Of a stretch of DNA of 64,000 nt, positions 4,929 to 37,789 are shown piece after piece (position 1 is the stretch's first letter; every line of letters starts with the position of its first letter). The translations under genes were made by a program, and so were the position numbers. The stretch is from Verrucomicrobiia bacterium DG1235 (GTDB lineage Bacteria; Verrucomicrobiota; Verrucomicrobiia; Opitutales; Opitutaceae): assembly GCA_000155695.1 (NCBI GenBank), contig DS990592.1, positions 5,450,227 through 5,514,226 on the forward strand, in the 5' to 3' direction. A model generated the notes under the pieces. The model ran no database searches and was not told the DNA's origin. It saw nothing but the letters and a program-made list of their open reading frames with translations.

Positions 4929-5576
4929 TCACTTTAAACTCATTTCACTGATCAGCTGCTCTGAGGAGCTCCAATTTTGATCGATAGAGTCCTTGGTGCC
5001 ACTCATGGTGATCACCAGAAGTCGGTCGCCGACCTTTGCGAAGATCTCTCGACGTTTGATGGTCATGTTTGCTGTGACTTGTTCGTAGGCGATCTGTCTG
5101 AATGTTTGTCCAAACACATAGGGCGTGGCGGGGGATTCGATATTCGAGTTTTCGAAGACGATCTCGATGCCTGGTTTATCGATCATTAGGCCCGCTTTGT
5201 AGCTTTCCCATGATTGATCGGATAGGTCTTCTAGAAACTCCCCTTGATTGAAGATGGAGAGTCCGATGGAAACTCCAGGGATTCGCTCGTCGGAGAGCTC
5301 TCCCGAGTATCGAGGTGAACTCGATTTCCGGATTTTGAGGCTCTTCCGCTTCGATAGCTCGAAGGACAGCTTATCCAATTGAAGCAGAAGCATGGGCACG
5401 CTGATCCCGTCAAAGGTCGTTCGGTATTCCATAGCCCCGAGTGCGGGGCGAGGCGTTTGTGGCCAATGAATGGGGACGATGTCCGATTCTTCCGTTTGCA
5501 AAACTGTCTGTCTCGGGTCCGCCGCCATGGAAGTGGCGGCGGCAAGCAGGAGAGCTATGAGTGCCTTGAGTTTCAT
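4929..5576 (-). CDS. Secreted protein of unknown function
   Basis: A 215-residue protein with a clear signal peptide (MKLKALIALLLAAATSMAA, cleavage near residue 19). The mature part is soluble, with no membrane segment, cysteine cluster or motif I recognise. It begins 51 bp after the pilin-like gene 5628-7955 on the same strand, so it may be co-transcribed with the pseudopilin operon and act at the envelope. That link is positional only. It could equally be an independent periplasmic protein. Confidence 0.7.
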   Translation of the reverse strand: MKLKALIALLLAAATSMAADPRQTVLQTEESDIVPIHWPQTPRPALGAMEYRTTFDGISVPMLLLQLDKLSFELSKRKSLKIRKSSSPRYSGELSDERIPGVSIGLSIFNQGEFLEDLSDQSWESYKAGLMIDKPGIEIVFENSNIESPATPYVFGQTFRQIAYEQVTANMTIKRREIFAKVGDRLLVITMSGTKDSIDQNWSSSEQLISEMSLK

Positions 5577-5627
5577 TTGCTGGTTTGGCTGTATGCGCGT
5601 GCGCTGAGTCGGAGCGGATTGAGCTCG

Positions 5628-7955: not shown

Positions 7956-7959
7956 AGGC

Positions 7960-8577
7960 TTACCCTCTTGGTGAGACTGTGAAGTTATAGGTATTGGTGG
8001 CTCGTTTGAGATTGCTGCCTTGATGGAGAATCTCTCCCTGGATCGTTATGCTTCGGTTGAAAAAGTTGTAGAAGAGTCGTCCGTCGCTGAGGCCTTTCGA
8101 GAGCTCGATGATTTCTTCGTGCGTTCCGTTCGTGCTGGCTGCTGGCAATAGGTCGGCGAGTAGCTCGTCTTGGGGAGTGTTGTAGCTTATCGCGAACTTT
8201 CGCACCGGTCCTTCGGTGTCTTCCGTGGCTGAGCGGTAGAATCCGATAACGGCAGTGTAGAGCGAGGGGTTGTCGTCGTCCACGAAGGCCAGCACGAGGA
8301 AGTCGCCGGATCCGCCGTCGTCGATGACGGTGCGGTCTGTGAAGGATTTGTAGATGACGAAAAAGTTTGAGTAGGTGGCGAAGTCGCTAAGTTCGCTGGT
8401 GAACTTTCGAATGTCGCGGTTCACGAGCAGCTTGCCTTCGTTGTAGGCAGTGAAGTTCGCGCTTGAGATGAGGAAGCTCATCACGGCTCCCATAACGACA
8501 CCGAAGACCACGGTGGTGACCATGACTTCGACAAGGGTGAATGCTTTCTTTCGTGCGGCTGTAACTGTTTTTCTCAT
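7960..8577 (-). CDS. PilW-like pseudopilin
   Basis: A 205-residue prepilin-type protein. The leader RKTVTAARKKAFTLVEVM contains the type IV prepilin peptidase site with the Glu at position 5 of the mature chain, followed by a ~20-residue hydrophobic helix. A TTG start at 8628 is possible but would overlap the upstream gene by 47 bp and give a longer leader. I prefer the ATG at 8577, which lies 4 bp after the upstream stop. The rest is a globular pilin-like domain without recognised motifs. It sits between the PilV-like and PilX-like genes, so it probably belongs to a minor-pilin priming complex or a type II-like secretion pseudopilus. Confidence 0.8.
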   Translation of the reverse strand: MRKTVTAARKKAFTLVEVMVTTVVFGVVMGAVMSFLISSANFTAYNEGKLLVNRDIRKFTSELSDFATYSNFFVIYKSFTDRTVIDDGGSGDFLVLAFVDDDNPSLYTAVIGFYRSATEDTEGPVRKFAISYNTPQDELLADLLPAASTNGTHEEIIELSKGLSDGRLFYNFFNRSITIQGEILHQGSNLKRATNTYNFTVSPRG

Positions 8578-12378: not shown

Positions 12379-14104
12379 ATGCCGTACAATTGGGCAAATG
12401 CGAACGAGCTTTGGGCGGACGTGCTGGTCGAGACGCTGCGTCGCAAGGGCGTCGACTATGCGATCACTTGTCCGGGGTCGAGGAGTTCGCCTCTGACATT
12501 TGCCTTCGCCCGAAATGAGGCGATCGAGGCAATTCCGATTCTTGATGAGCGTTCCGCCGCGTTTTTCGCTCTGGGCTTGGCGAAGCGGACGGGAAAGCCG
12601 GTGGCCTTGGTATGCACCTCCGGTTCGGCGGTGGCCAATTTTTTCCCAGCGATTGTAGAAGCCAGTGAAAGTGGCGCTCCCATAATTGTTTTGACTGCGG
12701 ATCGTCCACCGGAGCTTCGCGATTGTTCTGCAGGGCAGACGATTGACCAGGTGAAGTTTTTTGGTGGATACGTTCGCAAACAAGTTGAGCTGGCGGTACC
12801 TGAGGCGTCTGTGGCGATGCTGAGGTATTTGCGGCAGGCAGTTTCGCACTGCACGAATCTGGCGATTGCGCCGGATCGTGGACCTGTGCACTTGAATGTA
12901 CCTTTTCGCGATCCGCTCATACCAGTGGCGGTCGATGGTTTTGCGTCTCCGTTTGACGAGGAGAGCTACGAGGCGTTTTTTGCGCACTTGGAGTCGACCG
13001 ATAGCTTGCCTTTGATTCAGGCGCAGCTTCCGAAGACTCTTTTGAAAGTAGAGCGAGGTTTGATCCTTGTGGGCCCTTGTTCTCCCGTGAATGAAGACGC
13101 TTGGTGCGAGAATGTCGCGAGTTTGGCGAACTCCTTGGGTTGGCCTGTTTTGGCAGATGCCTTGAATCCCGCTCGTTCGAATTGCTCTGACTTTGAGTCA
13201 TTGGTGAGTGGATACGAGTACATATTGAGAAGCGAGGCTCTGAAAGAGGAGCTCGCTCCGGAGCATGTACTTGTGGTTGGGTCGCTGCCTACGAGCAAAG
13301 AGCTTCGGGCTTGGATTGGTAAAGGGGATGTTTCGATGACGTTCTTGTCTGATCGACCTGTGAATACTGACGCTACGCAGTCACGGGCGAATCATGTGTA
13401 TGCGGATTTTGAATTCGGGGGAGTATTAGTTGGGGAAGGGAACTCTCAGGATTATTGCAGGCGATGGTTGGGCCTGGATGCAGATGTGTCAGCCGAACTT
13501 GATAAGCGTTTCGAATCCATGGAGGAGTTTTTTGAGGGCAAGGTGTCTTGGATGCTGTCGCAGGCCTTGCCGGAATGGTCGGCTCTCTGCGTTTCCAATA
13601 GCATGCCTCCGCGTGATATGGAGTTCTATTTCGGAAAGCGTGAAGGATCCGTTTCTGTGTACAGCTCGCGTGGGGCGAACGGGATTGATGGGATTCTTTC
13701 TACTGCGATGGGGGTCGCTCACGAAGGCGAGCCGACTTATCTGCTGACGGGAGATCTCGCGCTCCTTCACGATACGAACGGCGCCTTGATCTCGAAGCAA
13801 CTGAAAGAAGCCTGACGATTGTGCTGGTGAACATGCGGGGGGCGGGATTTTCGAGATGTTGCCGGTATCGGAGTTCGAGGATGTATTCGAAAAACATTAC
13901 GGTACGGACCAGCAGGTGGATTTCTCGGATTGGGCAAAAACCTACGGAATCTCTTACGAGTTGATGAGTTCCTGGGATGATTTCTCGGCTAAGCTTACAG
14001 AGCCGTCTCAAGGTGCGCGTATTCTGGAAATCGCTACAGATCGCAAGCGAGACGCGACTATGCGGAAGCAATGGTTCGCGGAGATTGCGAAGCTGCTTAA
14101 ATAG
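12379..14104 (+). pseudogene. menD: menD (SEPHCHC synthase) with two single-base frameshifts
   Basis: The gene encodes the thiamine-diphosphate enzyme joining isochorismate and 2-oxoglutarate in menaquinone synthesis. The first frame (12379-13815, 478 aa) contains the N-terminal TCPGSRSSPLTFAFA block and the ThDP segment LLTGDLALLHDTNGA, then hits a stop after SKQLKEA. The next frame supplies SLTIVLVNMRG for about 30 bp, and a third frame supplies IFEMLPVSEFEDVFEKH through to the stop at 14104. One extra A near 13807-13810 and one extra G in the six-G run 13837-13842 would restore a normal 575-residue MenD containing RGGGIFEMLP. It is either a recent pseudogene or two sequencing errors. The stop overlaps the convergent ppx stop by 8 bp. 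Confidence 0.9.
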
Positions 14105-15041
14105 CAACCAGTCGACCGTGGGTGAGGAGAGTGGTCGCGACTCCGAAGCGAAGATTGTATTCGGAGAAATAGAGTCGCTCGCAGCCAAGGTGTTTGAGGG
14201 ATTCCTCGAGGGTGATCATGGCAGTAGGAAAAATGTCTGCACGGCTTTCGGGAATTCCGTATTGCTGGACGCGTTCGATAAGCGGTAGCGAACAAAGGTG
14301 GTGTGCGATGCGGGTGAACTCTGAGATGGAGAGTCCGTTTATGAGTTGGGAACCGGTGAGAGATTCCGATAGGTGTTTGGCGGCTCCGCCAGTGAGGACC
14401 GCGATTTCGCTAGGGCTAGAGTTTTTGGGGAATTGGGAGACGCTCCAATGTTCTTGAACATAGCGGGCGATACGGGCGCGGTTGGCTGGCGTGAGGGGCT
14501 CGGTTCGGTCTGTGAGGAGCAGAGATGCGAGGCGGACGGATCCGAGTTGGAGGCTTTCCGCGTTTAGGAGTTTGTGATTGGAAAACTGGATACATTCGAG
14601 GCTGCCGCCTCCGAGATCGAGCAGGGAGTAGGAGTCGAGTTGAGAGAGGGCGGGGTCGCACTTGAGGGCGAGTCCTATGTAGGCGGCTTCTTCGTCGCCC
14701 GAGAGGATGCGCAGTTCGTGGCCGCAGGCTTTTTCGACGGCGTTGACGAAGGCTTGCTTGTTGGAAGAATCTCGAACGGCAGAAGTGGCGACTATGCAGA
14801 TAGCGTTGCAATTGCTTGCGGCTTGGGCGAGACGGGCGATCGCTGCAGATCCGCGGGCTATGGCGTCGGCGTCGATGGTGGGCGGTTGGCCTGTCATGCC
14901 TTCTCCGATACGAGTTTCCTCGACGATGAATTCGACTTTTTCGGCCGGAACTTTTGATCCGGGTTTTGCGATGAGCAGTTTGATGGTGTTGCTGCCGACG
15001 TCGATGACTCCGACAGTTTCGGGACTAGAGCTCGTAGCCAT
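14097..15041 (-). CDS. Ppx/GppA-family phosphatase
   Basis: A 314-residue member of the exopolyphosphatase / guanosine-pentaphosphatase family (ASKHA fold). The first phosphate loop is GVIDVGSNTIKLLI and the second is LLDLGGGSLE; the conserved ATSAVRDS and LSGDEEAAYIGL segments are also present. It has only the ~310-residue catalytic core and lacks the extra C-terminal helical domains of E. coli Ppx. Polyphosphate or pppGpp hydrolysis cannot be told apart from sequence alone. Its start overlaps the 3' end of rsmI by 17 bp, so the two are translationally coupled. Confidence 0.88.
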   Translation of the reverse strand: MATSSSPETVGVIDVGSNTIKLLIAKPGSKVPAEKVEFIVEETRIGEGMTGQPPTIDADAIARGSAAIARLAQAASNCNAICIVATSAVRDSSNKQAFVNAVEKACGHELRILSGDEEAAYIGLALKCDPALSQLDSYSLLDLGGGSLECIQFSNHKLLNAESLQLGSVRLASLLLTDRTEPLTPANRARIARYVQEHWSVSQFPKNSSPSEIAVLTGGAAKHLSESLTGSQLINGLSISEFTRIAHHLCSLPLIERVQQYGIPESRADIFPTAMITLEESLKHLGCERLYFSEYNLRFGVATTLLTHGRLVAI

Positions 15042-27103: not shown

Positions 27104-28438
27104 ATGGATAGCGCGAAGAGGAAAAGGGCGTCGCTGCATACTTTGGGATGCAGGTTGAACCAGTCGGAGACTTTGCTGATCGAGCAGGGGCTGCAGGAGC
27201 GTGGCTACGATATCGTGCCGTTTGGGGAGGCGGCGGATCTGGGTATCATCAATACCTGCACGGTGACGAATCTGGCGGATTCGAAGTGCCGGCAGACGAT
27301 TCGGCAGTTCGTGCGGAAGAATCCGGAGGCATATACGGCGGTGATTGGCTGCTATTCGCAGATGGGGTCGAAGGAAATCGCGGAAATTGGCGGCGTTGAT
27401 TTGATCATCGGCAATCAGGAGAAGATGAGCGTGATCGACTACATCGGCCAGGAGAAGAACGAGAAGCCGGTGATCGTGCGGGAGAAGATCTCTCAGGAGG
27501 ATTTCACGATTCATAATTTCGGGGATATCCCGTTCAACCAGCGGGCGAATCTGAAGATTCAGGATGGGTGCAGTTTCGTGTGCAGCTTTTGCATCATTCC
27601 GTTCGCGCGCGGGGCGGCTCGGGCGCGGGAGATGGGAAATCTCTTGGAGGAGGCGCGGCAGAAGGCGGAGCAGGGAATTCGCGAGATCGTGATCACGGGC
27701 GTGAATATCGGGACTTATGACACGAAGGGCGGGGGCTTGCTGAAGGTGTTGGAGGGCTTGAACGCGGTTGAGGGAATTGATCGGATTCGGATCAGCAGCA
27801 TTGAGCCGACGACGATTCCGACGGAGTTGTTCGGGTTGATGAACGATCCTCAGCATGCCTTGCTGCCGTTTTTTCACATTCCGCTGCAGAGCGGGTGCGA
27901 CAAGGTGCTGAAGGAGATGCGGCGGCGGTATTCAGTTGGCGAATACTTGGAGTTTTTGCATTTGGCGCACGATAACGTGCCTGGTTTGTATGTTGGCTCG
28001 GACATCATGGTCGGATTTCCCGGGGAGACGGAGGAGGACTTTCAGGAGACGTGCCGCGTGTTTTTGGATAACCCTTTCGATTTTTGCCATGTGTTCAGCT
28101 ACTCGGAGCGGAAGGGCACGGTGGCGGCGCGTCGGGAGGATCAGGTGGAGATTCCCGAGCGGGCGAGGCGGAGCGCGTATCTGCGTCGGCTGTCGGCGAA
28201 GAAACGGTACGATTTTTACGAGAGCTATCTCGGCAAGGAGATGCGGGTGCTTTTCGAGAATCCGAAGCCCGAGAGCTGGCCTAGCTACACAGATAATTAT
28301 ATCCGGGTAGTGGTGCCGCGTTTGGGGGAGCTGGCGGCGGAGCAGGGAATGGATTTAGCGAACCGTTGCGGGCGGGTGAGGCTAAAAAAACTCGCCGGCG
28401 ACGTGGTCGAGGGCGAGTTGCTGGAGATGTTGGACTGA
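27104..28438 (+). CDS. mtaB: tRNA t6A37 methylthiotransferase
   Basis: A 444-residue radical-SAM methylthiotransferase converting t6A37 to ms2t6A37. The N-terminal UPF0004 domain has the cluster cysteines in TLGCRLNQ, NTCTVTN and VIGCYSQ. The radical-SAM cluster motif is CSFVCSFC, and GVNIGTYD and PLQSGCDKVLKEM follow. A TRAM domain closes the protein. The TLGCRLNQSE start and the lack of a MiaB-type pattern favour MtaB over MiaB or RimO. Upstream DNA carries a palindrome and a GGTT repeat. Confidence 0.92.
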   Translation: MDSAKRKRASLHTLGCRLNQSETLLIEQGLQERGYDIVPFGEAADLGIINTCTVTNLADSKCRQTIRQFVRKNPEAYTAVIGCYSQMGSKEIAEIGGVDLIIGNQEKMSVIDYIGQEKNEKPVIVREKISQEDFTIHNFGDIPFNQRANLKIQDGCSFVCSFCIIPFARGAARAREMGNLLEEARQKAEQGIREIVITGVNIGTYDTKGGGLLKVLEGLNAVEGIDRIRISSIEPTTIPTELFGLMNDPQHALLPFFHIPLQSGCDKVLKEMRRRYSVGEYLEFLHLAHDNVPGLYVGSDIMVGFPGETEEDFQETCRVFLDNPFDFCHVFSYSERKGTVAARREDQVEIPERARRSAYLRRLSAKKRYDFYESYLGKEMRVLFENPKPESWPSYTDNYIRVVVPRLGELAAEQGMDLANRCGRVRLKKLAGDVVEGELLEMLD

Positions 28439-28480
28439 GTTGGGTCGAGAGCGCCTGCCGAGGACGTCGGGTGCCACCTT

Positions 28481-28858
28481 TTAGCGTTTGTTGGGGAGAA
28501 TTTCGACTTCGTAGCCGTCGGGGTCTGTGATGAAGGCCATGTTGAAGTTTTCCTTTTCCTTCCAGTTGCCGGGCCAGACTTCGACTCCGGCGTCTTCGAG
28601 CTTTTGGCAGTAGGCGTTGATATCGTCGACGCCGATGCAGGTGTGCATGAGGTCTTCTGGGAACTCGACTTTGAAGTCGGGCGAGTAGGTGAGCTCGAGC
28701 ATGTGTTCGTTGCCCGGGAGCTCGAGGTGGACGATCTTGTTGCCTTGCGGGCTGGTGTTGGGGCCTTTGAAGACTTTGAAGCCACAGTGCTGGGTGTAGA
28801 AGTCGATGGACTTTTCGAGATCGGCTACGCGGACGCGGGTATGGAGAAATTTGATCAT
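28481..28858 (-). CDS. gloA: Glyoxalase I / lactoylglutathione lyase
   Basis: A 125-residue vicinal-oxygen-chelate enzyme that isomerises the hemithioacetal of methylglyoxal. All four metal ligands of glyoxalase I are visible: His in KFLHTRV, Glu in HMLELTYS, His in DLMHTCIGV and Glu in GYEVEILP. The ATG at 28858 gives the usual family N-terminus; an in-frame start 36 bp upstream would add a non-conserved leader. It stands alone, convergent with mtaB. Confidence 0.9.
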   Translation of the reverse strand: MIKFLHTRVRVADLEKSIDFYTQHCGFKVFKGPNTSPQGNKIVHLELPGNEHMLELTYSPDFKVEFPEDLMHTCIGVDDINAYCQKLEDAGVEVWPGNWKEKENFNMAFITDPDGYEVEILPNKR

Positions 28859-28938
28859 GGCATCTGTTAAAAGGCCGGTAGGCTTTGGCGACAAGCTTGG
28901 AAGAGGCTAGTCTTTTGTTTGCGCGAAGCCGAGGCGCT

Positions 28939-29430
28939 CTAGCTGGCGAATTCGGTGAACTCCGGAAAGAGCGTGTGCTGTCGGGAGCCGGTGTCTGAAT
29001 CGGAGGATTCTAGGAGGTTGGCGTGGTCGGCCTCGAGATGGATTCTAGAGCTTTTAGTCGGCACGAGCTTGTAAGCGTCTAGGTTTTTACGCTCTTCGAG
29101 AAAATAGGCTACGACGTCGAAAGCGTGGCGAGTCGCGGCGGTGATGATGACGCGGTCCATGGGTTCGCGGCCGATAGGGAATGGGAATTCTGTCTGGGAG
29201 CGGTGGAGCTCGCGGCGGATGAGTATGTAGGCGACGGCTTCGATTTCAAAGAGCCAGTCTTTGACGCGAGCTTTTAGATTTGGGAGCTCGATGTCGAAGG
29301 AATGCGCTAAAAATTTGTCCTGTATCGAGTAAGCAATTACGATGATTTCGTCTTCGGAGTCGGGCACGAAATCGCTCGATCTGCATTCGCAAAAGCGTCT
29401 GCCGGTTTGGATGAGTTGGCCAAGGATCAT
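28939..29430 (-). CDS. Hypothetical protein
   Basis: A 163-residue soluble protein with no signal peptide or membrane segment. It contains CECRSSDFVPDSEDEIIVIAY near the start and a middle helical stretch (VKDWLFEIEAVAYILIRRE). The C-terminus is Ser/Asp-rich. I do not recognise a family. It lies 122 bp before the multihaem cytochrome stop and is not obviously part of that operon. Codon-phase openness and a clean ATG support it as a gene. Confidence 0.6.
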   Translation of the reverse strand: MILGQLIQTGRRFCECRSSDFVPDSEDEIIVIAYSIQDKFLAHSFDIELPNLKARVKDWLFEIEAVAYILIRRELHRSQTEFPFPIGREPMDRVIITAATRHAFDVVAYFLEERKNLDAYKLVPTKSSRIHLEADHANLLESSDSDTGSRQHTLFPEFTEFAS

Positions 29431-29552
29431 CGGCGTTGAATCTATTCAAAAAAGCATATAGCGAAAGGCTTATCGTCATTTCTTCGGTTAAAAAATGGTG
29501 CCTTCACAAGCCCTGTCGATTGGGGTACGGGTAGGCTCTTAGAGGCAAGTCC

Positions 29553-30902
29553 TCAGTTTGTCCCCTGAGAGCGCCTAGCGGCTACGCGGCTTAGTTTTTC
29601 GACTACCATTTCGAGGCTTTCGACGTGTATGGACGAGGGGCCGCTGAAGTTGTTTTCGAGGAGATTTGGGTCTGCGAGGGCGTCGATGGAGAAGCCGACT
29701 CCGTGGCATTGGATGCAGACGGGGCGAATCATTTTCTCGTTGGGGCGGAGGACGTCGTTTTGGTTGTGCAGGACCTTGGTGAGCGTTTCGCCGAATTCGG
29801 TGACTTCCACTCGCGGCAAGTGGCAGGTGGCGCAGCTGACGCCAGTGCCGGCGGGAGCGGTGCCGTTGGATTCCGCCAGCCAGAGCTGGTAGTGTTTCGA
29901 CTCTTTGTAGGAGTTGGTGTGGGAGTCGTCGTGGCAGCTCATGCAGGCGTTTACAGCAGCGAAGCGAGTTTCGAAGCTATGGTCGTCGTGGCAGGAGACG
30001 CAGCTGAGCTCTTTGTGGCCGGCGCCGGCGTGCATGGGCAGCTTGGCGTGAGCGGGAGTCATGGGTGAGAGGCCGAGGTCGAGACGCATGCCGTGTCGGC
30101 TTTGGAGAAAGGTGTCTGTTTCGTAGTCGTGGCAATTCTGGCAGGAAGCTATTCCAGGCTTGGCGACCCAATCGGAGGATTGCTCGCTTTGGTGGCAGTC
30201 CATGCAATTGACTCCGGCTTGGGCGTGGCTGGAGGTGGACCACTCGAAAGCGATGTCTTGCGAGTAGTGGGTGGAGGTGGGGGCGTCGCGTTGGGCGAGG
30301 GAGAGTGGGGACGTTTCGTTTTCGTGGGCCCAGTTTTGGTAGAGGGTACGAGGCGGAACGCTGGGATCGGGTTTGTGGATGGGGTCGTCGAGGTGTTTTT
30401 CGAGGAAGTCTTCGTAGAGGGCGGAGTTGTCGTGGAAGTTGTGGCAGCCGGTAGTCGAGCAGCTGTTGAAGGGAAGGCCTTCGTGGGTGGGACGTTCTTC
30501 GGCGACGTCTTGATGGCAGAAGTAGCAGTAGTCTTCGGGGAGAGTGACTCCCATCTGGGCCGTCTGGTCGGGCTGATGCTCGACGTGGCAGGTAACGCAT
30601 TTGCGAGCGTCCAGGATGGCGACGCGGTCGGCGTTTCTGGGATCGAGAAATTTGGTGACCGGGTGGGAATCGGCGACGCGATCCAGTTCCTCCTGGTGGC
30701 AGCTGGCGCAGGCGTCGTGCTTCACTCCCATATCCTCGGTATGGCAGGCGGAGCATTGTAGCTGAATCTGATGGTGGCCGTGGGAGGCGTCGCCCGGCAT
30801 GAAGGCGTTTTGCTTCTCGCCTTTGATGGATGCGGAAAAGTGAAATGCAAGCCAGAGCGGGGCGAGGGCGGCGAGGATCCACTGGAGCTTTTTGCGATTC
30901 AT
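29553..30902 (-). CDS. Undecahaem c-type cytochrome
   Basis: A 449-residue periplasmic multihaem protein. An N-terminal hydrophobic segment (WILAALAPLWLAFHF) serves as signal or anchor. Eleven haem-binding sites follow: CSACH, CASCH, CVTCH, CYFCH, CSTTGCH (a CX4CH variant), CMDCH, CQNCH, CVSCH, CMSCH, CATCH and CIQCH. Many extra histidines suit bis-His ligation. It starts 1 bp after the stop of the flavoprotein-cytochrome b fusion, so it is likely the periplasmic partner that takes electrons from it. I cannot assign a catalytic type such as NrfA or HAO. Transfer to nitrite, NO or an outer carrier is open. Confidence 0.88.
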   Translation of the reverse strand: MNRKKLQWILAALAPLWLAFHFSASIKGEKQNAFMPGDASHGHHQIQLQCSACHTEDMGVKHDACASCHQEELDRVADSHPVTKFLDPRNADRVAILDARKCVTCHVEHQPDQTAQMGVTLPEDYCYFCHQDVAEERPTHEGLPFNSCSTTGCHNFHDNSALYEDFLEKHLDDPIHKPDPSVPPRTLYQNWAHENETSPLSLAQRDAPTSTHYSQDIAFEWSTSSHAQAGVNCMDCHQSEQSSDWVAKPGIASCQNCHDYETDTFLQSRHGMRLDLGLSPMTPAHAKLPMHAGAGHKELSCVSCHDDHSFETRFAAVNACMSCHDDSHTNSYKESKHYQLWLAESNGTAPAGTGVSCATCHLPRVEVTEFGETLTKVLHNQNDVLRPNEKMIRPVCIQCHGVGFSIDALADPNLLENNFSGPSSIHVESLEMVVEKLSRVAARRSQGTN

Positions 30903-30903
30903 G

Positions 30904-32901
30904 CTAGTAGGCGTAGGCTTTGTAGATGTGGAATCCTAGGAGGACGGGGTAGGGCCAGAAGAAGAGGATATGGGTCTTTGTAACGAAAGAACGAATACGT
31001 CTTGACCAAGGGCCGCTGAAGCGGTCTTCCATGGCGACGCTGAGGGCGGCGAAGGCACCGACAAGGTTTAGGCCGACGAAGCAAGTCATCAGCCAGAGGT
31101 TTAGGTTGTTGCCAAAGTCGAGCCCGGTGTGGGCGACGAGCGCAATGAGGCAGAGGACGCCAAGGCTGCTATGGACGGCCCGCCACCAGCCGAAATTGCC
31201 AAAGCGTAGGAAGCGGATGCGTTTGCGGGCGGACAGGAGAAGAGCCAGCAAGGAGAGGCCTGCCATGGTGTAACCCGAGATTTGCTTGTAGAGGGATTCG
31301 TGCCAGAGGCGGGAGATCTGGTAGTAGGCGGTCTGAACGCTTTCGGGCTCAGGAAAGGCGGAGAGAGCTAGGAAAGCGATGCAGGTAGCGAGAGCGGCGA
31401 GCCCTGCGATCCAAAGCGGCTTGCGGCCTTTGGGCTTGTAGGCGGCTTCATCGCCTGTTTCTCCACAGAGTTGAGCGAGAAGCGGACGACAGGATCCGCA
31501 GACTTCGCCCGCTCCGGTAGCGGCTGAGAGGTCGGCGGCAGTTTTGCATCCAGAGGAAATGCATGCGGAAAGGGTGCCTTTGCTTGTTTGGGTGCAGTTG
31601 CAGATGATAGCGTTGGCGGGCCAGTCCGCGAGAGCGTCTGCGGCAGGGATTTCGCCGCTTCGCTCGAATGCGGCTTGCTCGGAGGGAGTCATGAACCGCT
31701 CTTCCCTGATAGAAAGCTGGAGCTGGTGGGTTTGGTCCCAGTCGCCAACTACGGTGCCGCCTGCGAAGCAGTCCCGTTTGAGAATCAGCGAACGGTAGCT
31801 TGTCGGAGTGCGGTGCACGAGGGTGCGTCCTTCGCCGAGATAATCGCCGAAGGCGCTCACCTCGATGCCCATGAGCTTGAGGCGGCAGGAGAGATCGGAG
31901 CCTTGAAAAGTCTTTGAGCCGCCGCAGAGCTGATCGACGAGAGCTTCTGCCATTTGGTATCCTGGAGCGACGAAGCCGTAGATTTGACCTCGGTGCAGGG
32001 CACATTCGCCTATGGCGTAGATTGAAGGATCTGAGGTTTGCAGCTGGTCGTTTATGATGATGCCACCTCGAGCTCCGACCTGTAGCTCGGACTTTCGGGC
32101 GAGCTCGTCGGCGGGTCGGACTCCAGTGGCAATGATGAGGATATCGGTATGTTGTGATGACTCGTCGCTGAAAGAGACTAGGAGGCCACTATCGGTCGTT
32201 TCGATCTTCTGGGCTCCTTTTCCGACGAGTGGATTGACGCCAAGCTCCCGTATTTGCTGTTCAAGTACAAGGGAGGCGTCTTGATTAAGCTGGCGAGGCA
32301 TGAGTCCGTTTGCGAATTCGACCACGGTCGCGTGAAGCCCGAGTTCCCGCATGGCATTGGCCGCCTCGAGCCCGAGCAATCCTCCGCCGAGTACTATGGC
32401 AGATTTTTTGCTTTTGCAGTGACTTATAATAGCGTCGGCGTCCTGAAGCGTCCGGTAGACGAAAACTCCTGGAGATTCCTTTCCTTCGATGGGGGGTACG
32501 AAAGGATAAGAGCCGCACGCGAGTATGAGCTCGTCGTAGGAGTGAAGATTCCCTTTGGAATCTAGAACTTGTTTCTTCTCGCGATCGATGGAATCAATGC
32601 GGGCTGAAACATGGAGCGTGTATCCGTTTTTCGAGTACCAATCGGAACTCCCTAGGCTGAGAGTGTGGGAAGACGGGTTTTTGAAATAGTCCGTTAGGTG
32701 AACGCGATCGTAGGCGGGGCTTGACTCCTCTCCGAATACGGTGACGTCGAAGGTCTTGTTGGCTTTTCGCTTGGCGAGTTCGTGGCAAAAACGATGCGAG
32801 ACCATGCCGTTGCCGACGACGATTATCCGGCGTTTCTTAGGTTTTGAAGCGGATGCGATCAAAGTAGGAATGATGGCTACGCGGAGGCGTGGGCGAGCCA
32901 T
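30904..32901 (-). CDS. NirB-like flavoprotein / [2Fe-2S] / cytochrome-b-like membrane fusion
   Basis: A 665-residue fusion. Residues ~25-400 are a pyridine-nucleotide oxidoreductase like the N-terminal part of NirB: FAD site VVGNGMVSHRFC, NAD site VLGGGLLGLEAANAM, and IYAIGECALHRG. Residues ~430-475 are a Bfd-like [2Fe-2S] domain with CNC and CGSC. NirB's sirohaem/[4Fe-4S] domain is absent. Instead, residues ~495-665 hold about five membrane helices with His in WWRAVHSSLG, VAHTGLD, TKTHIL and GFHIYK, suggesting haem-b ligands. Electrons may flow from NAD(P)H to the adjacent multihaem cytochrome. A GTG at 32913 would add four residues; the ATG at 32901 is preferred. Confidence 0.82.
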   Translation of the reverse strand: MARPRLRVAIIPTLIASASKPKKRRIIVVGNGMVSHRFCHELAKRKANKTFDVTVFGEESSPAYDRVHLTDYFKNPSSHTLSLGSSDWYSKNGYTLHVSARIDSIDREKKQVLDSKGNLHSYDELILACGSYPFVPPIEGKESPGVFVYRTLQDADAIISHCKSKKSAIVLGGGLLGLEAANAMRELGLHATVVEFANGLMPRQLNQDASLVLEQQIRELGVNPLVGKGAQKIETTDSGLLVSFSDESSQHTDILIIATGVRPADELARKSELQVGARGGIIINDQLQTSDPSIYAIGECALHRGQIYGFVAPGYQMAEALVDQLCGGSKTFQGSDLSCRLKLMGIEVSAFGDYLGEGRTLVHRTPTSYRSLILKRDCFAGGTVVGDWDQTHQLQLSIREERFMTPSEQAAFERSGEIPAADALADWPANAIICNCTQTSKGTLSACISSGCKTAADLSAATGAGEVCGSCRPLLAQLCGETGDEAAYKPKGRKPLWIAGLAALATCIAFLALSAFPEPESVQTAYYQISRLWHESLYKQISGYTMAGLSLLALLLSARKRIRFLRFGNFGWWRAVHSSLGVLCLIALVAHTGLDFGNNLNLWLMTCFVGLNLVGAFAALSVAMEDRFSGPWSRRIRSFVTKTHILFFWPYPVLLGFHIYKAYAY

Positions 32902-32960
32902 GGGGCTGCCCACGCCAATCTATTAGCGTCTACCTGTATTCTGGTTTGTTGAAAGAAACG

Positions 32961-33377
32961 CTATGCAGCCGTTTCGTTGGCTGCATCCTTCATGGTCGTC
33001 GCTAGGAGAGTGTAAGTGGCGATCCAGGCTTCCTCGGTCTCATCCGTGAAAGCGTCGCCAAGGCCTTGGCCGAGGGTCCAGATGAGGGCGGTGCCGACCG
33101 TCTCGTAGTGCTCGTCTTTGACGCCGTATCCAACGTGGCGTTTGCCCATGGCCTGGACGGCGCCTACGATGCCTTCGAGGTTATTGAGTCCTCGGACGGC
33201 GGTAGTGATCATGGTCATGAGCTTGCGGCCTTGTTCTTTGATATCCGAGGTGAAGAGAGGTCTCAGCGAGGGATCGATTTCGAAGAGTTTCGCGTAGAAT
33301 ATGGAAGCGGCTGTATCGGCGATGGGGATACATTTGTTCCAGGAGGTTTGTACGAGTTCGATTTGTCGTTCTGTCAT
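32961..33377 (-). CDS. Single-domain globin
   Basis: A 138-residue bacterial haemoglobin like VHb or the globin domain of Hmp. The proximal His is in MGKRHVGYGV (about His81), the B10 Tyr is in IFYAKLF (about Tyr28), and a Gln in KEQGRKL fits the E7 position. Tyr-B10/Gln-E7 is the set used for O2/NO chemistry in flavohaemoglobins. No FAD reductase domain is attached, so a separate reductase must re-reduce it. The neighbouring flavoprotein fusion is a candidate, by inference. It lies between the cytochrome c and that fusion in the NsrR-headed run. Confidence 0.9.
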   Translation of the reverse strand: MTERQIELVQTSWNKCIPIADTAASIFYAKLFEIDPSLRPLFTSDIKEQGRKLMTMITTAVRGLNNLEGIVGAVQAMGKRHVGYGVKDEHYETVGTALIWTLGQGLGDAFTDETEEAWIATYTLLATTMKDAANETAA

Positions 33378-33404
33378 GTCGTTAGATTTTGGAGGTTGTT
33401 CAGG

Positions 33405-33821
33405 TTATTGGCTTAGGTGAGTCATGAAGCGGACGGCTTGCTTGACTTGTTCGTCGCTCAGTTCAGCAAATCCGCCTTTGGGCGGCATTTCCGTGTAGTC
33501 CGGACCGATGAATCCGTTGAGGGCGTGGTCGTAGAGCGTGTCTAAGCCTTTGGCTATTCGCGGAGCCCATGCTTCATGGTTTCCTATAATGGGCGCTCCT
33601 GTAAGACCTGTTAGGTGACAGGTCTTACAAGTGGCTCCCCAGGTGGCTTGTCCAGCTATCAGATCGGGGTCCGTGAGAGTTATCGATAGCGGGTCAAGGG
33701 GCTTCTCGGCAGCGGCCGGTTCGCTTTTTGCGCAACCAGCAATTGCGAGGAGGGCGCATAAGGCGACGCTGGCGCTAATGAAGAGCTTGGCGTTTTGCTC
33801 CTCTTCCAGTGAGCGGATCAT
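33405..33821 (-). CDS. Cytochrome c5-like lipoprotein
   Basis: A 138-residue monohaem cytochrome. The signal peptide ends in a lipobox (LLAIAGC), followed by an Ala/Glu/Pro-rich linker. The haem site is CKTCHLTG, and the distal Met is in YTEMPPKGGF, giving His/Met ligation. The C-terminal helix LSDEQVKQAVRFMTHL is typical of c5/class I proteins. It sits 27 bp upstream of the globin and 35 bp downstream of the DUF3365 gene. It is probably a periplasmic electron shuttle in the same redox path. Confidence 0.88.
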   Translation of the reverse strand: MIRSLEEEQNAKLFISASVALCALLAIAGCAKSEPAAAEKPLDPLSITLTDPDLIAGQATWGATCKTCHLTGLTGAPIIGNHEAWAPRIAKGLDTLYDHALNGFIGPDYTEMPPKGGFAELSDEQVKQAVRFMTHLSQ

Positions 33822-33856
33822 GATAGCGGTCGAGGTTGTGTAGAATTCGAAGACCG

Positions 33857-34453
33857 CTAGTCGATTGGAATGCGGATTACGACTCCCCCCATCACGTCTC
33901 CGAGCTTGAAGTCAGTTTTCGGAGAGTCCTTGTGCTCGTTATGGCAGTCGATACAGGCAGCGGCCACGCCCGTGTCCGCGTACACTCCGGTGAAATAATT
34001 GACGCCTCCCAGTTCTTCTTCGGCGTAGTAGTTCTGTCCTGGATTATCAATTACGTATTGAAGGCCGATTTTTTCGGCTTCGGTTTTTGGCGCGTTTTGC
34101 TGATTGATGGGCCAAATGGATTGGAGCGAGTAGCTGAAACCGGCGTCCGGTTCTTTGGCGACCATTTCAGCTCCCATGCGAAACATCTGGGCGGGCAGTG
34201 GAAGGGCCTTGTCGTCCGCCCAATGCTCGGAGGCTTTGATAACTTTGTCCTGCTTGACGAGGCGATTGACGACGTTGCGTGTATATATAGTACGGTCTGA
34301 CTTCATTACAAGGTGTAGTCCGTCCGCCATTTTCTGGGGAGATATCCCGCTCGTAGAGGCTTCGGCGCTTCCGCCGCAACCTGATAGGAATAGTGTCGAA
34401 GAGATTAGGGCACCGCCAAGCAGCGCCGTGTAGAGGATGGCTTTCTTTTTCAT
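33857..34453 (-). CDS. DUF3365 (Tll0287-like) haem-c lipoprotein
   Basis: A 198-residue protein with a signal peptide ending in a lipobox (LFLSGC) and a DUF3365-type domain. A CIDCHNEH haem site lies near the C-terminus, followed by KLGDVMGGVVIRIPI, the usual end of this domain. Such domains occur as sensors or stand-alone haem proteins. It is the first structural gene after the NsrR-like repressor. Its start is preceded by a strong hairpin (34458-34484) only 4 bp upstream, so translation may be controlled by RNA structure. Gas sensing is a possibility, not shown. Confidence 0.85.
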   Translation of the reverse strand: MKKKAILYTALLGGALISSTLFLSGCGGSAEASTSGISPQKMADGLHLVMKSDRTIYTRNVVNRLVKQDKVIKASEHWADDKALPLPAQMFRMGAEMVAKEPDAGFSYSLQSIWPINQQNAPKTEAEKIGLQYVIDNPGQNYYAEEELGGVNYFTGVYADTGVAAACIDCHNEHKDSPKTDFKLGDVMGGVVIRIPID

Positions 34454-34457
34454 TTTT

Positions 34458-34484
34458 CGGATTAGGCAATGGATTGCTAATCCG
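34458..34484 (-). promoter_or_regulatory. Hairpin next to the DUF3365 start codon
   Basis: CGGATTAGGCAAT (34458-34470) pairs with ATTGCTAATCCG (34473-34484) with one bulge and a 2-nt loop. It occupies the normal ribosome-binding region, ending 4 bp from the ATG at 34453. No U-run follows, so it is not a terminator. Confidence 0.6.
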
Positions 34485-34497
34485 GTTTTAGCATCTG

Positions 34498-34517
34498 AAA
34501 TGCCAAAACAGGCATTT
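34498..34517. promoter_or_regulatory. Inverted repeat, candidate NsrR operator
   Basis: AAATGCC (34498-34504) and GGCATTT (34511-34517) are exact inverted repeats separated by 6 bp. The half AACAGGCATTT (34507-34517) matches 9 of 11 positions of the known E. coli NsrR half-site AAGATGCATTT. It lies 45 bp upstream of the DUF3365 start, so NO-responsive control of the redox operon is plausible. Confidence 0.4.
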
Positions 34518-34686
34518 AGAATACAACTTTAAGAAAATATCCCTAAAGGCCTCGTTGTAGGTGATATTTAACTACAATAGTTGTGATCGATTCTCAGTAA
34601 GAGAGAACTATGAATTCCATTAATGTAAATGAGTTCTGGGAATTCTAGAAGCTGCGGAAAATCGTGATTCCGGAAATCGCCGGCGC

Positions 34687-35121
34687 TCAATCTTTGGCAA
34701 AAGTGGCGGCGAGGCCTTTGCGATTTTTCAAGAGATCTTGAAGCGTATGCTGATCGAGTTCTGCGTAGAAGGCTTTCTCCGCCTTTTTAAGCACGCTCTT
34801 GAGAGTGCAGTTTTTTGTGATGCAGCAGCGGTTGTTTTCTGGGTCGAAACACTCGACCAGTGGCGTGTGGCCTTCTGTGCTGCGGACTACGGTGCCAATG
34901 TTGATCTCGTGTGGCTGTTTTGCCAGGCGTATGCCTCCGCCTTTTCCGCGAGTGGCGGCGACTATTCCATTTTGGGAGAGGTGCGCGGAAATCTTTACCA
35001 AGTGATTTTTTGAAATGGAGTAGGCGTCGGCGATTTCGGTCAGGGAGACGAGACGTTCTTCATTCAGTCCGAGGTATAGGAGCATCCGAAGGCTATAGTC
35101 TGTGAATTTCGTAAGCTCCAT
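34687..35121 (-). CDS. nsrR: Rrf2-family NsrR-like repressor
   Basis: A 144-residue Rrf2 winged-helix regulator. The start MELTKFTDYSLRMLLYLGL and the block SKNHLVKISAHLSQNG, RGKGGGIRLA match NsrR closely. The [Fe-S] ligand region has cysteines as CFDP, CCIT and NCTLK, comparable to the three conserved cysteines of NsrR. NsrR loses DNA binding when NO attacks its cluster. Its placement ahead of a globin and haem proteins supports a nitrosative-stress regulon. IscR is less likely, because the DNA-binding and cluster regions fit NsrR better. Confidence 0.82.
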   Translation of the reverse strand: MELTKFTDYSLRMLLYLGLNEERLVSLTEIADAYSISKNHLVKISAHLSQNGIVAATRGKGGGIRLAKQPHEINIGTVVRSTEGHTPLVECFDPENNRCCITKNCTLKSVLKKAEKAFYAELDQHTLQDLLKNRKGLAATFAKD

Positions 35122-35155
35122 TTGGCGGGGGTTGAAATCAGCGGGGAGCGTTTTG

Positions 35156-35911
35156 TTAAAGGCGAGCGGGGAGTCCAGCGGCGGCGAGGTGTTCTTTGGC
35201 TTCCTTTATAGTGTAGGTGCCGAAGTGGAAGATGGAGGCGGCGAGCACGGCGGAGGCTTTGCCTTTTTCGAGGACATCGACGAGGTGGTCGAGGTTGCCG
35301 GCTCCACCGGAGGCGATGACGGGGACTTCGACGGATTCGGAAATGCGGCGGGTGAGTTCGCAATCATAGCCGGCGAGGGTGCCGTCGGCGTCCATGGAGG
35401 TGAGGAGTATTTCGCCGGCGCCGAGCGAGACGGCTTTTTTCGCCCATTCGATGGCGTCGAGGGGAGTGGGGTTGCGTCCCCCGTGGGTGTAGACGCGCCA
35501 GGAGTCGCCGTCGCGCTTGGCGTCGATGGCGAGGACGATGCACTGGTTGCCGAATTTTCTGGCGGACTGGAAGATGAGGTCCGGATTGTTGATGGCGGCG
35601 GTGTTGAGGGAGACTTTGTCGGCTCCGGAGTGAAGCATCTTAGTGATGTCGTCGACGGTGCGGAGTCCGCCGCCGACGGTGAGGGGCATGAAGCACTCGG
35701 ATGCGGTGCGTTCGACGACGTCGCGCATGATGCCGCGCTCGTCGGAGGAAGCGGTGATGTCGAGGAAGACGAGTTCGTCGGCTCCTTGCTGGTCGTAGGC
35801 TTTGGCGGATTCGACGGGGTCGCCCGCGTCGCGGAGCTCTTTGAACTTAACGCCTTTGACGACGCGGCCGGCGTGGACGTCGAGACAGGGAATGATGCGT
35901 TTGGCTAGCAC
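35156..35911 (-). CDS. hisF: Imidazole glycerol phosphate synthase cyclase subunit
   Basis: A 251-residue (beta/alpha)8 barrel making IGP and AICAR in histidine synthesis with HisH. The catalytic acids are in [16 protein letters not shown] (first) and [10 protein letters not shown] (second), with the phosphate-binding [13 protein letters not shown] and [12 protein letters not shown]. The length is standard. No other his gene is adjacent, so the pathway is scattered. The nsrR-like gene begins 34 bp downstream on the same strand. Confidence 0.95.
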
Positions 35912-35970
35912 GGTGGTGGAAGAGTGAGTGGTGAGTGGTGAAGAGTGAAAGGATCGTCGAGTGGGACAAT

Positions 35971-36005
35971 AAAAAAAGGGCGGCTCCGAATTGGAGCCGC
36001 CCTTT
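35971..36005 (-). terminator. Rho-independent terminator of the 588-aa gene
   Basis: AAAGGGCGGCTCC (35975-35987) pairs perfectly with GGAGCCGCCCTTT (35993-36005) across a 5-nt loop. The A7 run at 35971-35977 is a U-run on minus-strand RNA, so it ends the gene 36023-37789. Confidence 0.9.
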
Positions 36006-36022
36006 GGAAAAGTGCCTTTCGT

Positions 36023-37789
36023 TTACTCGGCTTCGCCGACCGCGATGATATCGGGATCGAAGGAGGCCGCGAAGCGGTAGGTTTGACCAGGACGCATGAT
36101 AAGCGGGTGGTCGCGCTCGAGGATTTGAAGGTAGTGCAGGTTGCCGTAGTTGGAGCGGTAGGAGCGGTCGTTGGTGACGACTTCAGTCTCTTTCCAGGTG
36201 CCTTGGAAGTCATCCTTCTGGATGGCGCAACGCAGGCCTTCGGCTCCTAGCATTGGCGAGGAGTCCACGCGGTAGCGCGAGTGCGGCGCCGCAATGGCGA
36301 GGACGTAGCGGAAGCGGTCCAGGGTGACCTGGTTCTTCACGGCGTAGATGAACTCGCAGGAGATCTTGTTGCCGGCGAAGGTCCAGTTGACCTTGACGGT
36401 TCCGAGTCCTGGAACGATCTGCTCTTGGGTGTTGATCCACTCTGGCTGCTCGTAGCGGAAGTAGAAGGAGCGCTTGAAGCCGAGGCCGGTAGTGCACTTC
36501 TTTCCGTAGTAGGAGGGAACGAATACGTTATCCCCTACGGTGAGCTCTGGAATCATGACGGGCAGGTACTGGCTGTTTGGCCAATCGAATACGCCGGGAG
36601 AGTGAGGGAAGGCTTGGCAGTCTGCGCCGGGGTGTCCGTTGTTGGACATGAGGGGCATTTGCAGCTGGAGGCCGGACTCTACGTTGCGGTAGAGCAGGAG
36701 GCCTTGCTCCTTCTTGTTGGACTTATCGAAGATGACGAAGCGGCAGCCAGACTTGAAGGGTGCCGGAGGCGTGGCTGGCGGAGCGTCGATCTGCTTGGAG
36801 AGACGAGCCCACTGGGAGAGGTAGCGAGCGCCGTCGAAGTTGGCCATACGGGTGGTATGGTTCGGGAAGGCGGTGCGCTCTTCGTCCCGTACGACGAGGT
36901 AGCCGTGCTCCTGGTCGAGGTAGGTGACGTAGAAGAAGTAGAAGAGGCGACGCAGCAGGTCGAAGTATTGCGGGCGCTTGTCGTCGGGGACCCATCCGTC
37001 GCGGAATCCTTGGAGAAGGAGGGAGATGAGGTGCATCTGGCCGTAAGCTCCTGCGTTTTCAGAGCAGGTCCAGCCGAGGCCGTCTTCGCGGACCATGTCC
37101 GGAAGCAGCTTGATGTACTTTTCCGCGAAGGTGCGGAGGGATGGGAGCTTGCGTTCGCGAAGCCCCGGGTTGCTGTGCAGCTGCAGGGCTTGGCGAGTGA
37201 AGACGAAAGCCATGACTCCGTGGAGGGAGAATGCTCCTCCGATGCCTTCTTCGGATACGTCGTCGAAGTAGCCGTTTGAGCTGGTTTCTTCGATGCGGGA
37301 GAGGAAGCGCTCGATGAGGCGTCCTGTTTCGTCCTTTTTCGAGAGTCCGAGCGAGAAGCGGCAGACAGCCTTGGCGACATTGAACGACTGCCAGTGGTTG
37401 TTGTAGTCGCTGCGGTTGAGCAGGAGGCGGTCGAGGTTTTCGCGTGTCTCGTCTACGAGGCGCTCCCAGACGGGATTGCGTTCCTTGGACGGGCCGAAGG
37501 AGAGTAGGGCGAGGGCGGCGTATGCGAGTCCGTTCTCCTGAGGAGGGTCACGGAAGGCCTGCGCTGTGATGCAGCGGGCCGCGAGGTCGATGAGATCCTT
37601 GCCGTCAAGCTCGGTTTCTCCGGTGGCGCGGTAGAATTCGCCAATAGCGAGCGCGGCATGGCCGGACTCGTCTAAGCGCGAATCTTCACCTTCGACGGGT
37701 GTGATGGTTCCATCGGGATTGATGGAATCCAAATTGTGGCTGAGCATGGAGCGAGCCATGTCGAGGCACTGTTCGGAGAAGCTATCCAT
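36023..37789 (-). CDS. Large protein of unknown function
   Basis: A 588-residue soluble protein with no signal peptide. The first ~350 residues are helix-rich, with recurrent aromatic and acidic stretches (LDESGHAALAIGEFY, GGAFSLHGVMAFVF, RLFYFFYVTYLDQEHGY), which suggests an alpha/alpha-barrel. The C-terminal ~230 residues look beta-rich. This two-part plan is seen in some polysaccharide lyases and hydrolases, but I see no diagnostic motif and do not assign an enzyme. It is a single-gene unit with its own strong terminator. Confidence 0.65.
   Translation of the reverse strand: MDSFSEQCLDMARSMLSHNLDSINPDGTITPVEGEDSRLDESGHAALAIGEFYRATGETELDGKDLIDLAARCITAQAFRDPPQENGLAYAALALLSFGPSKERNPVWERLVDETRENLDRLLLNRSDYNNHWQSFNVAKAVCRFSLGLSKKDETGRLIERFLSRIEETSSNGYFDDVSEEGIGGAFSLHGVMAFVFTRQALQLHSNPGLRERKLPSLRTFAEKYIKLLPDMVREDGLGWTCSENAGAYGQMHLISLLLQGFRDGWVPDDKRPQYFDLLRRLFYFFYVTYLDQEHGYLVVRDEERTAFPNHTTRMANFDGARYLSQWARLSKQIDAPPATPPAPFKSGCRFVIFDKSNKKEQGLLLYRNVESGLQLQMPLMSNNGHPGADCQAFPHSPGVFDWPNSQYLPVMIPELTVGDNVFVPSYYGKKCTTGLGFKRSFYFRYEQPEWINTQEQIVPGLGTVKVNWTFAGNKISCEFIYAVKNQVTLDRFRYVLAIAAPHSRYRVDSSPMLGAEGLRCAIQKDDFQGTWKETEVVTNDRSYRSNYGNLHYLQILERDHPLIMRPGQTYRFAASFDPDIIAVGEAE

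Follow-up and report, generated by a model that had tools for sequence, protein, structure and literature searches.

A conserved NirB-like flavoprotein-cytochrome b fusion and eleven-haem cytochrome c in an operon of Verrucomicrobiia bacterium DG1235: a candidate NADH-driven route to nitric oxide or nitrite

The operon and its conserved core

The stretch of DNA analysed here (the window) comprises 64,000 nucleotides of contig DS990592.1 from Verrucomicrobiia bacterium DG1235, whose genome lies near Pelagicoccus. Our subject is a minus-strand operon that runs from position 35121 to 29553 and encodes, from first gene to last, an Rrf2-family repressor (R), a stand-alone DUF3365 lipoprotein (D), a one-haem cytochrome c (c), a single-domain globin (G), a membrane fusion of flavin, [2Fe-2S] and cytochrome b domains (F) and an eleven-haem cytochrome c (M) (Table 1). 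A preliminary description of the locus had listed six same-strand genes, closely spaced except for the first; all of them were found with Pfam support, and the intergenic gaps, in the same order, are 233 (Rrf2 to DUF3365), 35, 27, 47 and 1 bp. Among named sequences, F and M come closest to proteins of Pelagicoccus (78% and 80% identity, respectively). D carries a lipobox-like LSGC and a single CXXCH motif (CIDCH), and c a CKTCH haem site and a lipobox-like AGC. The best matches of G in the PDB are 3wfw and 3s1i, and its Tyr28, Gln49 and His81 fit what we take to be positions B10, E7 and F8.

Table 1. Coordinates of the operon's genes and of features within and beside it (positions in the window; aa, amino acids; ORF, open reading frame)
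Feature	Positions	Strand	Support or remark
Rrf2-family repressor, NsrR type, 144 aa	34687..35121	-	Pfam Rrf2 137.4 bits, above curated cut-off
NsrR-box-like site AAGTTGTATTCTAAATGCCTGTT	34507..34529	-	76 bases before the DUF3365 start, between Rrf2 and D
Second palindrome GTTTTGGCATTTCAGATGCTAAAAC (TTTTGGCAT...ATGCTAAAA)	34485..34509	-	abuts the NsrR-box-like site
D: stand-alone DUF3365/Tll0287 (sCache_heme) lipoprotein, 198 aa	33857..34453	-	Pfam Tll0287-like 64.8 bits (cut-off 24.1)
c: one-haem cytochrome c (CBB3/c5-like) lipoprotein, 138 aa	33405..33821	-	Pfam Cytochrome_CBB3 49.9 bits
G: single-domain globin, 138 aa	32961..33377	-	Pfam Globin 59.3 bits
F: flavin/[2Fe-2S]/cytochrome b membrane fusion, 669 aa from GTG	30904..32913	-	ATG at 32901 is an alternative start
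F residues 28-308: FAD/NAD(P)H domain, NirB type	31990..32832	-	Pyr_redox_2 172.3 bits over 29-308
F residues 436-482: BFD-like [2Fe-2S] domain	31468..31608	-	Fer2_BFD 32.3 bits
F residues 497-669: membrane domain, predicted two b haems	30907..31425	-	hydrophobic segments, kept His
M: 11-haem cytochrome c, N-terminal membrane anchor, 449 aa	29553..30902	-	haem motifs; Pfam Cytochrom_c3_2 60 bits and other multihaem families
M residues 148-154: CX4CH haem motif	30441..30461	-	motif scan
M residues 203-421: six-haem part, HAO/ONR/NrfA-like in the predicted model	29640..30296	-
163-aa ORF directly downstream of the module	28939-29430	-	no Pfam match at E 0.001

Scanning named genomes with an M profile gave 431 relatives, of which the best 80 loci, not a random sample, were analysed together with flanks of as much as 10 kb at either end; many of these records are metagenome-assembled genomes. 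The profiles used to call genes were built on the window proteins, so that a divergent c, globin or Rrf2 protein may go undetected, and "absent" is to be read as not detected. The longer loci L098 and L099, both with D, replaced the short L009 and L010. In 79 of the 80 loci M is immediately preceded by F on its own strand, the remaining one (L047) being cut by a contig end, and D occurs in all 80 (7 kb off in L021). The globin is found in 59 loci, single-domain in 54 and truncated in five (L019, L020, L021, L054 and L056), and in L019 and L020 the truncated form occupies the slot between c and F. Depending on the measure, c is present in 35-40 loci, and Rrf2 in seven, six of them Verrucomicrobiota. 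The commonest orders are F-M-D-c-G (25 loci), F-M-D-G (21) and F-M-D (18); R-D-c-G-F-M occurs in two. All six genes occur together in the window, L017, L018, L097 and L098, and L099 carries R, D, c, F and M with a divergent globin-like ORF.

According to the record titles, these loci belong to seven phyla: Pseudomonadota, Planctomycetota, Verrucomicrobiota, Lentisphaerota, Poribacteria, Myxococcota and Dadabacteria (the last filed under Thermodesulfobacteriota by the tree tool). The conserved core is the cytochrome b fusion, the eleven-haem cytochrome and the DUF3365 protein, usually with a globin, and its recurrence across phyla argues that the gene set is more than chance. Loss of the gene order in relatives had been named in advance as the observation that would count against the preliminary description; the order is kept. 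The tree of M tracks the phyla with eight changes, the minimum possible being six, and the family looks ancient; the deepest forks are weakly supported, Verrucomicrobiota appear in two places, and horizontal transfers may have occurred. Among the 7,999 candidates scored, 2,664 proteins belong to the M family at E 1e-3; the 120 matches listed are mostly labelled "cytochrome c3 family protein" or "hypothetical protein", and the plasmid collection yielded no relative of M at E 1e-20.

A predicted path from NADH to the eleven-haem cytochrome

The front of F is that of NirB, the NADH-dependent assimilatory nitrite reductase, with which it shares the FAD/NADH and BFD [2Fe-2S] domains. Residues 30-489 match positions 1-471 of the 794-position NirB model with 464 bits, below the NirB cut-off of 578, and since the match stops at position 471, the siroheme/[4Fe-4S] reductase half of NirB is not in F; in its place stands a membrane cytochrome b, which matches no named Pfam family. 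Among 79 F sequences (the window protein and matches above 700 bits from the loci), the four Cys of the BFD-like domain are invariant, and the membrane residues His581, His595, His648 and His662 are kept in 79, 79, 79 and 78, respectively. Each His pair has a spacing of 14 residues, as is typical of membrane cytochromes with two stacked b haems. Positively charged stretches (ARKRIRFLR and RRIR) follow the second and the fourth hydrophobic segments, which by the positive-inside rule would place the flavin domain on the cytoplasmic side. The second strand of the nucleotide fold is closed by a Glu (VVEF), the rule for NADH over NADPH, which suggests that F prefers NADH. The parts of the NADH-to-periplasm path envisaged in the preliminary description are thus present in F.

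In two loci from Dadabacteria the gene before M encodes the cytochrome b part only (residues 506-669 in the 669-aa numbering), without flavin and [2Fe-2S] domains. Cytochrome b and M are therefore the tightest pair, and the NirB-like flavin part would be a dispensable input. At the other extreme of size, F of two Polyangium loci (L066 and L073) reaches about 1,270-1,280 aa, with a long Pro/Ser-rich stretch of low complexity inserted after the [2Fe-2S] domain and before the membrane domain. Of 57 near genomes, six yielded full-length F.

The eleven haems attributed to the last gene of the operon proved exact by motif count: M has ten CXXCH motifs and one CX4CH, a pattern shared by 118 of 120 homologues among the matches listed. 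A structure model from a 144-row alignment (predicted local distance difference test score, pLDDT, 91.1) replaced one from 34 rows, which was poor (pLDDT 56) and was discarded. The C-terminal half of the predicted M matches HAO, octahaem nitrite reductase (ONR) and NrfA best, the VIA-align rows covering mainly this half (with a single HAO row beginning as early as residue 68), and besides the predicted fold residues 203-421 show short matches to the profiles of these families. When hhalign was used to place the catalytic haem of NrfA or ONR on M, the matches were short and shifted, and the alignment of C320-H324 of M with the CLNCK haem of ONR was weak (7.5 bits, E 14) and was not used. A motif scan of M found no CXXCK, the catalytic-haem motif of NrfA and ONR. 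HAO and some NrfA proteins have CXXCH at the catalytic haem, so an enzymatic role of M is compatible with this result. M differs from the HAO/ONR/NrfA family in its eleven haems, its separate five-haem front, the CX4CH motif and the lack of CXXCK; in addition, that family takes electrons from quinol, whereas M would draw on NADH via F. The genome of DG1235 also contains an NrfA-family ORF of 569 aa (L123, G000:C6:702788-704260) in which the first motif reads CLHCH instead of the classical CXXCK, and L113-L122 are similar CXXCH variants.

We propose, giving the idea about even chances, that F and M of the conserved module form a transmembrane path for electrons from NADH and that M reduces nitric oxide (NO) or nitrite in the periplasm. 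The most likely role of the module would then be an NADH-driven clean-up of NO or nitrite, the substrate being the part that we infer. Electrons would pass from NADH to FAD, to the [2Fe-2S] cluster, to the two b haems and thus across the inner membrane to M. The positive-inside rule would assign His581 and His648 to the haem on the cytoplasmic side and His595 and His662 to that on the periplasmic side, and with this placement the electrons would bypass the quinone pool. M, anchored by its N-terminal helix, may take up electrons with its five-haem N-terminal half and spend them on NO or nitrite in its six-haem C-terminal half, c presumably serving as an additional carrier.

The strongest competitor, which we consider improbable but worth keeping in sight, casts M as an electron wire that hands NADH electrons received through F to c and D, from which they would go on to some further partner such as a terminal oxidase, for the sake of redox balance or to supply another acceptor. 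The lack of CXXCK would suit a wire, as would invariant His residues sufficient for bis-His ligation of all haems of M, the presence of c in about half of the loci, and COX2 and COX1 genes after c in L061. Known undecahaem cytochromes moreover serve extracellular electron transfer (PMC10734462, PMC5371394). One of these, UetJ of the Uet complex, has eleven haems as M does; its partners there are a porin and tri- or tetrahaem cytochromes, neither of which is among the recurrent neighbour clusters of M. Against the wire speak the predicted HAO/ONR/NrfA-like fold of the six-haem part and the company of nitrate genes, globin and NsrR-type repressor, and the COX genes are confined to one locus.

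A probable link to nitric oxide: repressor, candidate operator and haem-Cache protein

The Rrf2 protein has Asp8, Arg12, Thr4 and Thr7 as well as three Cys (Cys91, 99/100 and 105), which are residues given for NsrR in PMC11500311, where Asp8 and the three Cys serve as cluster ligands. Its best model is that of NsrR (139.5 bits), and its best PDB match is Streptomyces NsrR (5n07). Since the score is below the cut-off of 182, we call the protein NsrR-type rather than an equivalog of NsrR. Upstream of the operon, in the gap between Rrf2 and D, lies a site with the 11-1-11 inverted-repeat form of an NsrR box, which scores 17 of 22 against the E. coli NsrR consensus (PMC5320621), a score equalled by none of 300 shuffles. 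The NsrR-like repressor of the preliminary description is thus borne out by its cluster and switch residues and by a box-like site.

Among relatives, scores out of 22 are 18 in L099, 18 in L018 (with a second site scoring 20), 16 in L017, 15 in L097, 15 in L021 (shuffle fraction 0.03) and 14 in L098 (0.06); L037 is borderline (0.08). In L019, L020 and L022 the scores are no better than those of shuffles, the weak matches in L019 and L020 being of the second-palindrome type. The left half of the L099 site, AAGTTGCATTA, is also a half-site of E. coli hcp (PMC5320621). A search pattern built from the window and L099 sites has a single match in the window; the only other match in the genome, which carries three mismatches and falls within the 3' end of an ORF unrelated to the module, was taken as chance. 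The second palindrome is similar in Pelagicoccus relatives and partly so in Cerasicoccus, and a search of positions 28000-37000 against Rfam found no family. As box and repressor occur in only some relatives, control of the module by NsrR in response to NO is likely a lineage feature, in which the repressor would hold the local operon silent until NO meets its cluster.

A different sensor is conceivable, since the NsrR score lies under its cut-off and close to that of RirA (129.7 bits), and a homologue of NsrR in Streptomyces venezuelae turned out to add a new member to the superfamily (PMC5015018). The Rrf2 protein would then sense redox state, iron or Fe-S clusters, as RsrR or RirA do, and the operon would answer general redox stress. 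We regard this as a long shot in view of the NsrR switch residues, the best PDB match, and a box at a like distance in seven relatives or lineages; six of these (the window, L099, L018, L017, L097 and L021) stand at or below 0.03 against shuffles.

D belongs to the haem-c Cache (sCache_heme) domains, as DUF3365 domains are described in a 2026 preprint (PMC12889525). The preprint contrasts a stand-alone Pseudomonas putida protein, which has Cys/His ligation and binds NO weakly, with a signalling protein of P. azotoformans, which has no axial Cys and binds NO tightly. D is likewise a stand-alone domain, but it has no axial Cys and in this respect resembles the NO-binding signalling protein. All 84 module D proteins lack a domain Cys outside CXXCH, equivalence to the axial position being our reading. 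The comparison set consisted of 28 DUF3365 ORFs from relatives (30 loci), sorted by ORF length, two of them module members. The 15 ORFs of at least 547 aa all lack such a Cys as well; in L161, L140, L146, L151 and L155 a Cys precedes the CXXCH motif by 79-93 residues, which is not so in the stand-alone-size L147, L152, L154, L158, L159 and L160. With no domain Cys besides CXXCH, module D is therefore stand-alone yet built like the NO-binding kind, and we predict that it binds NO. The prediction is tempered by a finding of PMC12889525: the P. putida protein did not bind NO firmly after removal of its Cys. In the proposed clean-up of NO or nitrite, D would act as a periplasmic NO binder or as an electron relay. 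The genome of DG1235 has a second stand-alone DUF3365 gene, which bears the Cys (L140, G000:C6:3885001-3885465) and lies about 2.5 kb from a flavoprotein (L002, G000:C6:3887940) with 32% identity to the flavin domain of F.

Nitrate genes at the module loci

When the neighbours of the 80 loci were grouped by clustering, a nitrate-type ABC transporter emerged: 29 loci have the NrtA or the NrtB cluster and 27 have both. These 29 include 26 from Pseudomonadota and two from Verrucomicrobiota, with none from Planctomycetota or Poribacteria, and 17 of the 45 loci with full flanks have Nrt genes. The representative NrtC/D scores above the nitrate-transporter cut-off, and the NrtB slightly below. The window contains no Nrt genes, in contrast to the 29 loci that have them within 10 kb. 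Regulators with an ANTAR domain occur in 22 loci, 21 of them with Nrt genes, which suggests that elsewhere the module may be controlled by nitrate through these regulators. The earlier label of an NsrR-headed island thus fits only the local form: the repressor does head the operon in the window, but it stands outside the conserved core, with seven loci against 29 with Nrt neighbours.

A molybdoenzyme resembling NasC and formate dehydrogenase is encoded in eight of the 80 loci and NirD in four. DG1235 itself has a NasC-like gene next to that of a 596-aa siroheme protein, at C6:2.12 Mb and a long way from the window. A siroheme domain was found in 58 of the 59 genomes searched, and siroheme ORFs of NirB size (815-1,040 aa) in at least 35 of the 50 module genomes reached through the loci, so that the module is no stand-in for NirB there. 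NasC-like matches occur in 47 of these 50 genomes against a background of 217 of 293 genomes in the order of an Alcanivorax; the model also matches E. coli, none of the matches is above its cut-off, and given this background they are weak evidence. Within that order they are found in 29 of 31 genomes with M and 188 of 262 others (Fisher p 0.004, uncorrected for kinship), and among relatives in six of six module genomes versus 22 of 51 (Fisher p 0.010, likewise uncorrected). That F and M replace NirB as an assimilatory nitrite reductase, F being a NirB that has shed its siroheme half and feeds M, and M making ammonia in the periplasm, is very improbable: the NirB ancestry of the front of F, the Nrt, NirD or NasC-like genes near M and the lack of a full NirB match in the genome of DG1235 would favour it, but the NirB-size siroheme ORFs and the NasC-siroheme pair of DG1235 itself speak against it.

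Relation to known systems and proposed function

Among the closest known systems is the NrtABC-NarK-Bjgb-Flp-NasC operon of Bradyrhizobium, whose single-domain haemoglobin and flavoprotein clear NO that stems from nitrate assimilation. The passages of PMC4724949 concerned place the globin and its NAD(P)H-dependent flavoprotein next to nitrate transport genes and under nitrate-responsive control; the module offers a globin and a flavoprotein and, in 29 of 80 loci, Nrt neighbours. These passages describe no membrane cytochrome b, eleven-haem cytochrome or DUF3365 protein, and Flp is cytoplasmic, whereas in the module a membrane domain is joined to the flavoprotein and nasC usually lies outside the cluster. 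By this comparison the Bradyrhizobium operon is best taken as a functional parallel and not as a member of the same family. The NsrR regulon (hmp, hcp, ytfE, nnrS, norB and nirK) shares with the local operon an NsrR-type repressor and a box before a globin-bearing operon; the section of PMC1274295 on this regulon lists no eleven-haem cytochrome, DUF3365 protein or NirB-cytochrome b fusion. In keeping with the preliminary description, no account of this exact gene set was found in the open-access literature, outside which most subscription papers lie. The themes are known (the NirB flavin unit, NrfA/HAO-like haems, an NO-removing globin and NsrR); their wiring is unusual.

Returning to the NADH-driven clean-up of NO or nitrite, we suggest that the globin removes NO in the cytoplasm and may be re-reduced by the flavin domain of F, much as Flp acts for Bjgb in Bradyrhizobium, and that the likely occasion would be the formation of NO and nitrite beside nitrate assimilation. 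It is tempting to go further, and we do so tentatively, with less confidence than in the F-M path itself: the module may be a phylum-spanning, quinone-independent NADH:nitrogen-oxide reductase, in which a NirB flavin module and a di-haem cytochrome b drive a new eleven-haem enzyme (a five-haem receiver and an HAO/NrfA-like six-haem reactor), with an NO-binding haem-Cache protein and a globin guarding the two sides of the membrane during nitrate use. If this were true, several phyla would share a direct use of NADH for periplasmic nitrogen oxides that does not run through the quinol-linked NrfA and Nor systems, and a large group of eleven-haem cytochromes would acquire a function. Stand-alone DUF3365 proteins without the axial Cys would gain a partner and a testable role in NO binding, and nitrate-using bacteria an added pathway for the loss of NO and nitrite.

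Some neighbours at individual loci deserve mention. In L021, two ORFs resembling the ResB/CcsA proteins of cytochrome c biogenesis (judged by eye) lie at 5079-8010, between the truncated globin and F. The COX2- and COX1-family genes of L061 occupy 12433-14464, directly after c. An outer-membrane-type protein of the Alginate_exp family is encoded in 10 of the 80 loci (e.g. L076:4835-6127), often beside Nrt genes.
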